IMG/VR virus record: IMGVR_UViG_3300037247_000655
Location: 101,527 to 165,526 of that record
Reading direction: 5' to 3' (one strand)
DNA length: 64,000 nucleotides
From: a virus
In this document: positions 45,041 to 48,775 of the stretch, one piece after another
Numbering within the stretch: position 1 is the first letter of the stretch
Layout: each line of letters starts with the position of its first letter
The notes under the pieces: model-generated
Seen by the model: the letters and a program-made list of their open reading frames with translations, nothing else
Databases searched by the model: none
What the model was told of the DNA's origin: nothing
Made by a program: the position numbers and the translations under genes

Positions 45041-45220
45041 TTATGAATCACGAACTCCATGGAGTTCTACGAACTCTTCCTTAGCAGATTCTATTTTAAC
45101 TCTTTTGCCACACTCAATGTACGACTCTGCCGCTTTTGCAGACGAAAAGAGTCTTTTGAATTCTTTGACTGGCTTTCCAGTTATATCTAGTGTTTTTCTC
45201 ATCACTACCCATGCTTCCAT
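45041..45220 (-). CDS. 59-residue protein behind the E1-like gene
   Basis: Short gene below usual cut-offs, overlapping the E1-like stop (TAATG) with GGGAG 8 bases ahead. Basic: RKTLDITGKPVKEFKRLFSS then KAAESYIECGKRVKIESAKE. No family recognised. Being the last gene of the ubiquitin-like cassette, it could be an accessory or a conjugation target. Confidence 0.66.
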   Translation of the reverse strand: MEAWVVMRKTLDITGKPVKEFKRLFSSAKAAESYIECGKRVKIESAKEEFVELHGVRDS

Positions 45221-45879
45221 TATTGTGCTCCCATCTCGTTTGTCAATAGATTAAGGTCTATCTCCTTATCTATGTCGCATCCACGCAACCATTGGGCGAA
45301 TTGCGCCACCATAAGTCCCGCTGCAATATTTGCGCAGTAGATGGTAGTTTTTGCTGTACACCTATCCTGAAATGCTTCTGCCGATGAGAACAGCGTTGTC
45401 TCATAGTGTTTCCTAGACGACTCATCATAGGCCGTGAACACTCTCATGTATTCAGCACTCATCCTCCCGTCTACGAACAGATCTGCCCTCCCCTTAACTC
45501 TGTTGAATATAGATGTTTTAGTTTCTATCCCGTCCGCACAGCAAAATAAAACACCCCCGGTAAACTGGCTAGACTTGAACTTACTACATGCAGTGGTTAC
45601 CTCAATTCCTGAATTGATAAGTCGACATATATCCGCCACGGCGTCTACCTTTGGTTTAGCTAGGTCTGTTTCATAAAAACCCTGTGCTGCTAAGTTCTCC
45701 ACAGCCACCGTGTCAAAATCTATCACACTCAACTTCGGGACACCAATTGCTGCTAACTGTAACGCTACTTGACGACCAATTGCCCCAACACCAACGACAG
45801 TAGCTCTTGTTTCTGCTAATTTGTCTGGTGGTACCAACTCCTGTTGACGTACGTCTCTTCCCGATATCATTGTGCTCAT
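45220..45879 (-). CDS. E1/ThiF-like adenylyltransferase
   Basis: 219 residues from the ATG at 45879 (GGAG 6 bases ahead). Single Rossmann ThiF domain: VVGVGAIGRQVALQLAAIG binds ATP (GVGAIG 30-35), SVIDFDTVAVENLAAQGF carries the Mg-binding Asp and the conserved Asn. LFCCADGIETK follows, then DRCTAKTTIYCANIAAGL with C174 as candidate thioester cysteine. It would adenylate the Ubl C-terminus and pass it to the E2-like protein. Much smaller than eukaryotic E1 and without a ubiquitin-fold domain, as in bacterial E1-E2-JAB operons. Confidence 0.88.
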   Translation of the reverse strand: MSTMISGRDVRQQELVPPDKLAETRATVVGVGAIGRQVALQLAAIGVPKLSVIDFDTVAVENLAAQGFYETDLAKPKVDAVADICRLINSGIEVTTACSKFKSSQFTGGVLFCCADGIETKTSIFNRVKGRADLFVDGRMSAEYMRVFTAYDESSRKHYETTLFSSAEAFQDRCTAKTTIYCANIAAGLMVAQFAQWLRGCDIDKEIDLNLLTNEMGAQ

Positions 45880-45909
45880 GGTAGTCTCCATAATAGATTA
45901 GGAATTCCT

Positions 45910-46743
45910 TTAGTCATCCATAACTAACTCTCGCTCATTTGCGTACTTAGTAGCCCATGCTTTGATCTGCTCAATTAATGGTTCGTTCGGATTAGGTATT
46001 ACCTCTAATAAATCTTCGTCTTCTGTCCACCATTCATCTGCTGTTGGATTGTATACATACCAGACTGCTTCCTCTTCGTCCCAGTGTGATGCGTTACCAT
46101 CAGAGTTCCAGTAGCATTCAATGTCTTTACACAAAAGATCTTTCCACAGAGGATCTTCCATGTCTTGGGTAACACTGGGAGACATCGTCTTTGTTATTAT
46201 TTGAAATTCCTCAACGACTACCTTTGTGTTATATTCTTCCTCCCACGCCTTGGCGTTCGATGAGCCAAACGGGACACTCCAGTCTACCGTTACTTTAAGT
46301 AGTTTTTCTACTCCCGGAGCCGTATTCATCTTGAGACGGCAATATGTAGAACCGTCTTTAGCAATGATTAACATAATTGCCCAGTTAGGATGAGAGAATG
46401 CTTCCTTAAAGTTCTCCTCATCGTTCGCGCTAGGATGTGGCGAATTGCCCGGGTGGGAATGAATCAAAAGATTCATACATGCCCATGGTGGCACACCTAT
46501 GTCCATCATTCGTTCTGTGTGTTCCGCATTGTCCTCTGGGTCTAGTTCGAAATGGATAGGATTACATTTTTGTTTTACTAGAACGAAATCGGTGACTAGC
46601 AAAGGATCTTTTGTTGCAGTTATGCCGTATCCCGCTACTTCAGTGGGACCCAAGTCTCTCATACACAACAATTTTGAGTAGGCATATGCTGTAAATCTCA
46701 GTGTATCACCAAACGTTACCTTTGGTTTTGTGAATTCTTCCAT
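45910..46743 (-). CDS. JAB/JAMM metallopeptidase (deubiquitinase-like)
   Basis: 277 residues. The JAMM zinc site is complete: E35 in TEVAGYG, then LIHSHPGNSPHPSANDEE giving H95, H97, S105 and D108. The C-terminal 100 residues are acidic and Trp-rich (WDEEEAVWYVYN, ADEWWTEDEDLL), possibly a Ubl-binding extension. In such cassettes JAB enzymes trim the Ubl precursor and remove conjugates. AAAGGG before the ATG; 15 bases from the E2-like gene. Confidence 0.9.
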   Translation of the reverse strand: MEEFTKPKVTFGDTLRFTAYAYSKLLCMRDLGPTEVAGYGITATKDPLLVTDFVLVKQKCNPIHFELDPEDNAEHTERMMDIGVPPWACMNLLIHSHPGNSPHPSANDEENFKEAFSHPNWAIMLIIAKDGSTYCRLKMNTAPGVEKLLKVTVDWSVPFGSSNAKAWEEEYNTKVVVEEFQIITKTMSPSVTQDMEDPLWKDLLCKDIECYWNSDGNASHWDEEEAVWYVYNPTADEWWTEDEDLLEVIPNPNEPLIEQIKAWATKYANERELVMDD

Positions 46744-46758
46744 TTTTATCCCTTTCGG

Positions 46759-48090
46759 TTAATCATCAATCTTGGCTAAGATACAATTATGCTTCTTAGA
46801 ACAAGACGTGCAAGTAGATGTTCCGCAGTGTTCACATATGTTCCTATAACAAGAATCACACACTAGCTTGTTGCATTCTTCACAATCGTTTGTACATCCC
46901 TCACAAATACCCGCAGAGCATTGGGTGCATTTCTCAGTTATACAATCTTCACAGAAAACATCCATACAACCACCACATTCTGTCTTGCAACCGTCGCAGA
47001 TATAATCTCCACAATTGGTGCACGGAGTAGAACATGATTCGCAATGGTCTGTCTGACATGTTAGACATAGGCTCGTGCACGATGAGCATACTGTATTTTT
47101 ACATTCTGGACACGTTGTTAAACACCCCTCGCAATATGTCGAGTCACATTCCTCACATGTTTTAGAACAATCCCCACAGAACATCTCGTTACATCCTACG
47201 CAACCTGCTCCATTGAAGCAACTTTCACAGAACACGTCTCTACAGTTATTGCAAGTATATATCAGACTATCATCTAGAGAATCAGAGCAGACTATACAGG
47301 CGTGTTCACTATCTGGATCGTACCATTCATTAAGGTGGTAATACGGTGAGTCTCCGTTGTATGTTCTAAGAATTGACTCAACAATTGTAAGGTAATCCTC
47401 AAGTCTACCTTCACACAAAGCTGCGTTCATTATGTCGCCGCCGTCGCCACAGCAAAGTCTTTCGTTTTTTACGTGTGGATGGTAGCCACCACCGCCAGAC
47501 TCTATTTTGTTGACGGATTCTATCCAGAGGCTTTTGAACGGTTCGGTTATGTTAAGGTGAATCCAAAAGGAACCTAGTTCGACTTCTTCTTCAGACTCAC
47601 TTAATATAACATCTTTTACAAGAACAGACAGTATGTTATCACGGAATTTTACTTCTTCCCATGCGGCCACAATGGCATACATTTCTTCCATTGCTACTTT
47701 GTGGGACAAAGGTGTAATCTTATCATCTATCAGATATTGGAGTGTAGTAGAATTGTAACCAATCGCCGCGATAAGATCTCTTTCAACTTCTTTCGCTAAG
47801 ACCTTGATTATATTATCATGTGTGTGATGAGGGATGAGCCCAAAATGCCGTGGTTTCGTGGTGTCCCACGGGAATTTCTGGACTTTCAGGTCATTCGCAG
47901 ACACAAAAAGTCTAACCAACCTACTTAGTTCATTGGCTTTGTTAACAACTTTTCGAACGTTTCCAATTGTTTGTGGTACGAATTCCTGTCTACCTTTGAT
48001 TGCTTCTTGGATCATCCAGTTTCTATATTTCGAGGCTGCACGACGAACAAGTTTATCGTTCATCTTGCCTGGTTGTTTTTTCGCGATCAT
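46759..48090 (-). CDS. E2-like conjugating domain fused to ten zinc modules
   Basis: 443 residues from the ATG at 48090 (AGGA 9 bases ahead). A helical N-terminus (1-150) is followed by an E2-like fold at about 170-258. This has the strand ELGSFWIHLNITEPF, YHPHVKNERLCCGDGG with the HPHV motif and candidate catalytic C213, and helix LEDYLTIVESILRTYNG ending SPYYHLNEWY, the pattern of bacterial E2-like proteins. From 265 to the end come CIVC and ten consecutive CxxC-x4-CxxC units, about 15 residues each. The repeats could act as an E3 or target-binding scaffold built onto the E2. Confidence 0.82.
   Translation of the reverse strand: MIAKKQPGKMNDKLVRRAASKYRNWMIQEAIKGRQEFVPQTIGNVRKVVNKANELSRLVRLFVSANDLKVQKFPWDTTKPRHFGLIPHHTHDNIIKVLAKEVERDLIAAIGYNSTTLQYLIDDKITPLSHKVAMEEMYAIVAAWEEVKFRDNILSVLVKDVILSESEEEVELGSFWIHLNITEPFKSLWIESVNKIESGGGGYHPHVKNERLCCGDGGDIMNAALCEGRLEDYLTIVESILRTYNGDSPYYHLNEWYDPDSEHACIVCSDSLDDSLIYTCNNCRDVFCESCFNGAGCVGCNEMFCGDCSKTCEECDSTYCEGCLTTCPECKNTVCSSCTSLCLTCQTDHCESCSTPCTNCGDYICDGCKTECGGCMDVFCEDCITEKCTQCSAGICEGCTNDCEECNKLVCDSCYRNICEHCGTSTCTSCSKKHNCILAKIDD
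46801..47253 (-). repeat. Ten tandem CxxC-x4-CxxC coding repeats
   Basis: Ten units such as CNNCRDVFCESC, CVGCNEMFCGDC, CPECKNTVCSSC, CTNCGDYICDGC and CEHCGTSTCTSC follow each other without other sequence. Each has the four Cys needed for one zinc. Unit sequences differ, so the expansion is old rather than recent. Confidence 0.85.
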
Positions 48091-48112: not shown

Positions 48113-48145
48113 AAAAAGGGGTGGAGGAAAGATTTCCCCCACCCC
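48113..48145 (-). terminator. Rho-independent terminator between Ubl genes and E2-like gene
   Basis: Stem GGGGTGG/CCACCCC extended by a G-T pair and GGAA/TTCC, tetraloop, then TTTTTG on the minus strand. It starts 20 bases after the stop of 48165-48410. It should stop or thin transcription before the E2-JAB-E1 genes. Confidence 0.85.
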
Positions 48146-48164: not shown

Positions 48165-48410
48165 CTACTTCACCCCCAACAACTTACTCCGAACCTGTTT
48201 AGCTTCGTCTGCCGGAAGCTTGGCTATCAGGTCTACTACAGACTTTGGTAGCTTATTCTTCGCTTCCTTCCTATTCAACTTATATGCCAGAGCAACAACA
48301 TCGTCTGTTTGACTAGCTACCAAGTTTTCAGCCATAGCGATAGCCTCATCGCTCATCCTGGATCGAAGCGACTGAATCTGCTCTTCATTAGTTCCTGGCC
48401 CTCGTGCCAT
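48165..48410 (-). CDS. 81-residue helical protein paired with the Ubl
   Basis: Starts at the ATG at 48410, which has AAAGGAG 7 bases ahead; the longer upstream reading has no RBS. Sequence is wholly helical (NEEQIQSLRSRMSDEAIAMA; KSVVDLIAKLPADEAKQVRS). No family recognised. It shares its transcript with the Ubl and ends at a strong terminator, so it may be made in similar amounts, as expected for a Ubl partner, chaperone or target. Confidence 0.75.
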   Translation of the reverse strand: MARGPGTNEEQIQSLRSRMSDEAIAMAENLVASQTDDVVALAYKLNRKEAKNKLPKSVVDLIAKLPADEAKQVRSKLLGVK

Positions 48411-48517: not shown

Positions 48518-48775
48518 CTAATGCATAGCTTGAATAGTTACAGTGTCACTGCCATCAACCTTAAGGGGTGCCAATGATATGCGGTCTCCATCCTGAAGGA
48601 TATAGTCCATATGGGCCTCAACCGATGTCCCATTGGCCCTGACACGAATCTTAAACTCTTCTATGTCTCCCTCGAATGCAACCCTCAAGAAATCTTCCAG
48701 CCGAGTGTCGTCTGCAACATCTACCTGCTGAGGTAATCCTGCCCCGTCGTTGGTGATTAGTGTGACATTGATCAT
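48518..48775 (-). CDS. Ubiquitin-like (ThiS/MoaD-type beta-grasp) protein
   Basis: 85 residues. INVTLITNDGAGLPQQVDV, TRLEDFLRVAFEG, FKIRVRANGTSVE, and DYILQDGDRISLAPLKVDG give the strand-strand-helix-strand-strand order of ThiS/MoaD-like Ubls, with the diagnostic LQDGDRI turn. In relatives the chain ends shortly after the position of VDG. Here ten more residues (SDTVTIQAMH) follow G75, so either a JAMM cut exposes the glycine or conjugation uses another end. AGGAG 6 bases before the ATG, directly behind a hairpin. Confidence 0.83.
   Translation of the reverse strand: MINVTLITNDGAGLPQQVDVADDTRLEDFLRVAFEGDIEEFKIRVRANGTSVEAHMDYILQDGDRISLAPLKVDGSDTVTIQAMH

Follow-up and report, generated by a model that had tools for sequence, protein, structure and literature searches.

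The window, a 64,000-nt stretch of a virus record, carries on its minus strand an operon in which the gene for a ubiquitin-like protein (Ubl) is followed by those for a small protein, a protein that is E2-like and Cys-rich, a JAMM metalloprotease and an E1-like enzyme. The Ubl gene (48518..48775, minus strand), supported by its open reading frame, an AlphaFold2 model, a fold match and 42 counted homologs, encodes an 85-residue beta-grasp protein and has a single match in its own 165,526-base virus record. As the first-pass annotation had noted, ten residues follow the expected terminal glycine: the open reading frame (48775-48518) ends in LAPLKVDG(75)SDTVTIQAMH, with the Gly75 codon at 48551..48553 and the ten tail codons at 48521..48550 on the minus strand.

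The AlphaFold2 model, built from an alignment of 13 homologs, adopts a beta-grasp fold with a mean pLDDT of 81 and strands up to residue 70, while residues 75-85 fall below a pLDDT of 50. An extra strand or structured element in the tail was ruled out, as the model places the tail in a coil at this low pLDDT. Both sequence and model indicate a single domain. The best solved match is a molybdopterin synthase chain (6jbz_B, Z 10.1, rmsd 2.5, 71 residues aligned), and the closest solved structures comprise molybdopterin synthase chains and SAMP1 and, lower, Caldiarchaeum ubiquitin in complex with an Rpn11 homolog; 6fnn_C was matched with a Z of 8.5 and an rmsd of 2.3 over 71 aligned residues. The protein scored under the gathering score of Pfam ThiS (17.1 versus 22.5 bits), and a search of deposited phages for direct Ubl homologs gave one poor match only (E 0.4).

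Behind the Gly codon, ~50 bases of the window can be aligned with those of a relative, L001, with a length difference of 2 nt. The L001 gene stops four codons past the glycine, and the window gene continues in another frame through the 3′UTR of L001. On this alignment, the ten tail residues look like translated 3′UTR, apparently entered via the 2-nt difference after the Gly codon, and both their number and their sequence are particular to the window phage and lack conservation. A frame change directly behind the glycine of an otherwise intact Ubl fits a segment that is discarded; we infer the direction of this change from the fact that most relatives have a shorter tail.

Partner genes of the Ubl

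The gene following the Ubl (48165..48410, minus strand) encodes a small protein of 81 residues (MARGPGTNEEQ...). Its GPGTNEEQI stretch is reminiscent by eye of an annexin repeat, and Pfam gave no annexin match. The next gene (46759..48090, minus strand; 443 residues from the ATG) encodes an E2-like domain followed by C-terminal Cys-rich (CxxC) zinc-finger-like repeats, with HPH at residues 204-206 and Cys213. Across 41 aligned cores (alignment A15; 47317..47694, minus strand, in the window), the HPH...C motif is kept, with His72, Pro73 and Cys81 (first-row numbering) invariant and His74 nearly so. Searched against solved structures, the core profile gave ubiquitin-conjugating enzyme E2 L3 or its variant as the first nine matches, all weak (E 0.13-0.16), with the HPN...C site of E2 L3 aligned to HPH...C. 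UQ_con was touched by two of the 41 members (best E 0.01), the first set of 11 E2-like proteins gave no match to Pfam E2 families, and no E2 stood out clearly in fold searches with the model of the entire protein, their lists consisting mostly of N-terminal helices and zinc fingers. The E2-like label is the weakest assignment in the operon.

The JAMM/Prok-JAB metalloprotease (45910..46743, minus strand; 277 residues) exceeds the Pfam cut-off for Prok-JAB, its sole Pfam domain, and carries Glu35 and H95-x-H97-x7-S105-x2-D108. Besides it, no peptidase was recognised in the operon and no other JAMM was matched in the record. The HxHx7SxxD motif was intact in all 37 JAMMs found, each with the upstream Glu at the expected distance. 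No direct homolog of the window JAMM was matched among deposited phages. By eye, its C-terminal region contains a WW-like stretch in common with L001.

The E1-like ThiF-family enzyme (45220..45891, minus strand; 223 residues; Pfam ThiF 8.9e-23) contains one ThiF stretch nearest to ThiF/MoeB and a conserved Cys178, invariant in 12 sequences. The surrounding motif CTxK[ST] occurs in all 19 distinct viral E1s. Among the 15 E1s from genome contigs, 13 have it and two retain the Cys but carry Gln in place of Lys.

A GC-rich, terminator-like hairpin with a T run (48118..48145, minus strand) separates the E2-like gene from the preceding Ubl and small-protein genes. A simple terminator scan of the window region found no excess (two, against 2.9 expected from shuffles); a separate search, compared with mononucleotide shuffles only, found that 18 of 20 viral loci have a strong hairpin with a T run after the Ubl, or after the Ubl and small protein, and before the E2-like gene. 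Read as a predicted terminator from its pattern, the hairpin would fit the production of more modifier than enzymes.

A conserved glycine and a variable extension

We collected homologs through Ubl and E1 searches of viral contigs and a Ubl search of genome contigs, which gave 45 distinct Ubl sequences. Three were set aside (L071, cut by a contig end; a second, Gly-less Ubl in L061; and L083, outside the family), leaving 42, of which 20 were viral and 22 came from genome contigs, mostly Planctomycetota MAGs. As these sequences are related, the counts below do not represent independent events.

Gly75 was kept in all 42 homologs and none of them ended there, so that the terminal activated glycine of ThiS/MoaD-type products was found in no member. 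The extension ranged from 1 to 83 residues, with one residue in 11 homologs, two to six in 22 and eight to 83 in nine. The first-pass annotation had taken the tail as exceptional, whereas an extension is in fact the rule in this family. Residue 76 was Ala in 34, Glu in two, Ser in two, Gly in two, Asp in one and Pro in one. Pro70 and Gly75 both had a pairwise identity of 1.00; the value fell to 0.66 for residue 76 and did not exceed 0.10 from residue 77 onward, indicating that the boundary and the presence of the extension are conserved and its content is not. A conserved motif within the tail was likewise ruled out, as conservation stops at residue 76. Two cases count against maturation: in L009 a Pro follows Gly, making a poor protease site, and the L061 paralog lacks the Gly.

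All 20 viral loci contained E2-like, JAMM and E1 genes, and the 22 genome loci contained them in 18, 17 and 15 cases, respectively. Within the contig sequence covered, the Ubl had none of the three partners in L064, L077, L078 and L082; JAMM and E1 were missing in L066, and E1 in L069 and L076. Several partner-poor contigs end soon past the Ubl, but L077 and L082 have several kb of flank, and their tailed Ubls without neighbouring partners count against maturation by an operon JAMM.

A distant branch of nine loci (L045-L053, Ubl-E2-JAMM-E1 operons on contigs of ~10-42 kb) yielded eight Ubls, recognised by eye ahead of the E2-like gene, with none seen in L049. These were kept outside the 42 because their Gly register is ambiguous, two residues being able to match Gly75. 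With gapless spacing, three of the eight might be tailless, two having Ala and one Gly as the last residue, which would count against an obligatory extension. The profile of this branch matched a SAMP2 chain (5lda_B, E 1.1e-4).

Several loci showed further features. L061 (CP070695.1 154230-166463), a Heimdallarchaeota-labelled chromosome with the cassette and the Gly-less second Ubl, is possibly virus-derived or misassembled; its isochorismatase and radical SAM genes resemble those near the window cassette. The planctomycete MAG GWF2_41_51 holds four such Ubl loci (L062, L063, L069 and L079), and L079, with HATPase-like and DUF2958 genes on its flanks, is perhaps part of a mobile element. In the large Xanthomonas phage PhiXhv-12 (140754-144128), an E2-like/Cys-rich protein was recognised by eye beside the E1, and a Ubl search of this phage gave no match. 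HNH-type endonuclease-like genes lie within or adjoin the operons of L001, L003 and L060, recognised partly by eye and partly from annotation.

Ubl fusions in other phages

The window, L001 and L019 each encode the small protein in a gene of its own. In L020, it is fused in frame past the Ubl glycine (KIEG-DAGKGPGTNEEQ...), the whole small protein thereby forming the extension.

A comparable layout occurs in cultured phages, in which we identified Ubl, E2-like and JAMM motifs by eye. In crAss001, the gene order is gp79, gp78, gp77 and gp76: gp79 contains an N-terminal Ubl ending KIKSG-A before a long extension, gp77 is a metalloprotease (Prok-JAB below the cut-off) and gp76 is a ThiF protein. 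Eight crAss-like homologs of gp79 retain Ser89-Gly90. In cr106_1, the Ubl stops two residues past the glycine with an HNH endonuclease gene directly next, and the C-terminal part of the fusion forms its own gene, split off by the inserted endonuclease gene. Flavobacterium phage Fpv3 has the same order as crAss001, and its gp55 is a Ubl fusion with KSGG before the extension. A sequence link between the crAss Ubls and the window family was rejected (hhalign E 0.079, probability 0.7%), and fold searches between them gave modest matches (cr111_1, E 7.2e-3; cr106_1, E 1.2e-2); the tie between the two is thus drawn from fold matches, gene order and E1 similarity.

Discussion

E1 enzymes (ThiF/MoeB/E1) adenylate a C-terminal carboxylate, and residues past Gly75 would therefore block activation, making the gene product an inactive precursor (pro-Ubl) in which the globular beta-grasp extends to about residue 70 and Gly75 lies in a flexible tail. 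Since every counted relative has an extension, the tag is probably a locked precursor trimmed by the neighbouring protease. The operon JAMM would most likely cut directly behind Gly75, ahead of residue 76. This would remove the tail or, where relatives have a fusion, free the fused protein; the E1 would then activate Gly75 and pass the Ubl on to the E2-like/Cys-rich protein, which would attach it to targets. We consider it likely that the pro-Ubl is matured past Gly75, with the JAMM as the best candidate, and is then activated by the E1 and passed to the E2-like protein. The precursor architecture, the invariant glycine, the unconserved tail, the natural fusion and the conserved enzyme motifs are observed; from them we infer the cut, its enzyme, the activation step and a role in conjugation instead of sulfur transfer. 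JAMM maturation was one of two options raised by the first-pass annotation, and the invariant glycine with its constant but variable extension, the complete JAMM motif in the operon and the Ubl-protein fusion argue for it at the sequence level.

Could the matured Ubl instead be a sulfur carrier, with a thiocarboxylate at Gly75, similar to siderophore or cofactor pathways? In the siderophore system QbsE/QbsD, a JAMM removes residues past the Ubl glycine, and that system performs sulfur transfer and is not known to involve an E2. The MoaD/ThiS-type fold and the ThiF/MoeB-like E1 of the window would suit such a role, but the conserved E2-like protein with its HPH...C motif and Cys-rich repeats points elsewhere, and no sulfurtransferase was recognised among the scanned proteins, which cover part of the record. 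Given the E2-like partner, the evidence favours tagging, and we regard sulfur carriage as unlikely.

Slightly less probable still is that the cut past Gly75 is made by a protease of the host or by another one of the phage, with the JAMM merely stripping the Ubl from targets. The tailed Ubls of L077 and L082 would be explained in this way, and JAMMs generally act as isopeptidases, according to PMC8832034; the same paper describes JAMMs that cleave linear Ubl fusions, and the window operon offers no recognised peptidase besides its JAMM.

The other option of the first-pass annotation, an unused C-terminus with the tail retained and the Ubl acting through non-covalent binding, would account for the lack of homologs ending at the glycine. 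We find it improbable because Gly75 is as invariant as Pro70 ahead of a variable tail, and E1 and E2-like partners, both with a conserved Cys, accompany the Ubl in every viral locus. Stop-codon drift alone, leaving a tail neither selected nor removed, could explain the UTR-like window tail and the lack of conservation from residue 77 onward, but is very improbable, as the extension is absent in none of the 42 homologs, Ala occupies residue 76 in 34 of them, and drift should have left some genes ending at the glycine.

The proposed JAMM-dependent maturation of the pro-Ubl has parallels in several systems. SAMP2, whose C-terminus is Gly-Gly, and Caldiarchaeum ubiquitin with its Rpn11-like JAMM are archaeal, the former being matched by the distant-branch profile and the latter by the Ubl model. 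Eukaryotic ubiquitin and Ubl precursors are processed by other protease classes. In PMC11354881, ubiquitin-ribosomal protein fusions, SUMO, NEDD8 and ATG8 are described as precursors cut after a glycine, and the window family is similarly made with a tail or a fused protein. In Deinococcus, the JAMM DR0402 cleaves a linear beta-grasp fusion, MoaD-MoaE, and leaves a C-terminal glycine (PMC8832034); the L020 fusion has an equal layout, whereas the Deinococcus case belongs to a bacterial cofactor pathway with no E2. The bacterial ISG15-like BilABCD system, in which BilC first cuts BilA to expose a glycine (PMC11354881), shares the set of Ubl, E2 or E2-like, JAMM and E1 genes with the window operon. 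BilA differs in having two Ubl domains rather than one, and BilD in combining inactive and active adenylation domains with a Cys domain, in contrast to the 223-residue window E1 with one ThiF stretch. PADLOC BilD weakly matched a planctomycete E1 (4.8e-5) and was absent among the 25 matches listed for the window E1. In phages, TAPI/TAPK of tail assembly comprise a JAB protease and a Ubl with a conserved glycine, at which cleavage by the JAB was predicted in 2006 (PMC1779556), resembling the window pair; unlike the window operon, with its E1 and E2-like genes and unfused JAMM, these are described among tail genes, with JAB fused to NlpC/P60.

JAMM maturation of Ubls is thus already known elsewhere, from MoaD-MoaE and BilA. 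No description of a phage Ubl-E2-JAMM-E1 cassette was recognised in a search of open PubMed Central papers, which gives weak evidence of novelty; what looks new is that a phage carries the complete cassette and that its pro-tail is apparently obligatory, together with natural phage Ubl fusions. Tentatively, several phage groups, namely crAss-like phages, Flavobacterium phages and the large-genome phages of the window family, whose contigs reach 208 kb, may carry a self-contained ubiquitin-type conjugation cassette. Its modifier would in every case be produced in a locked form and be switched on by the phage's own JAMM, in some phages freeing a second protein. What seemed an odd tail in one phage thereby becomes a rule for the whole family, with the position of the cut precisely predicted, and the equal layout in the cultured crAss001 and Fpv3 makes a phage-encoded protein-tagging pathway directly testable. 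The phage Ubl-protein fusions would then be a counterpart to the fusions of ubiquitin with ribosomal proteins in eukaryotes.
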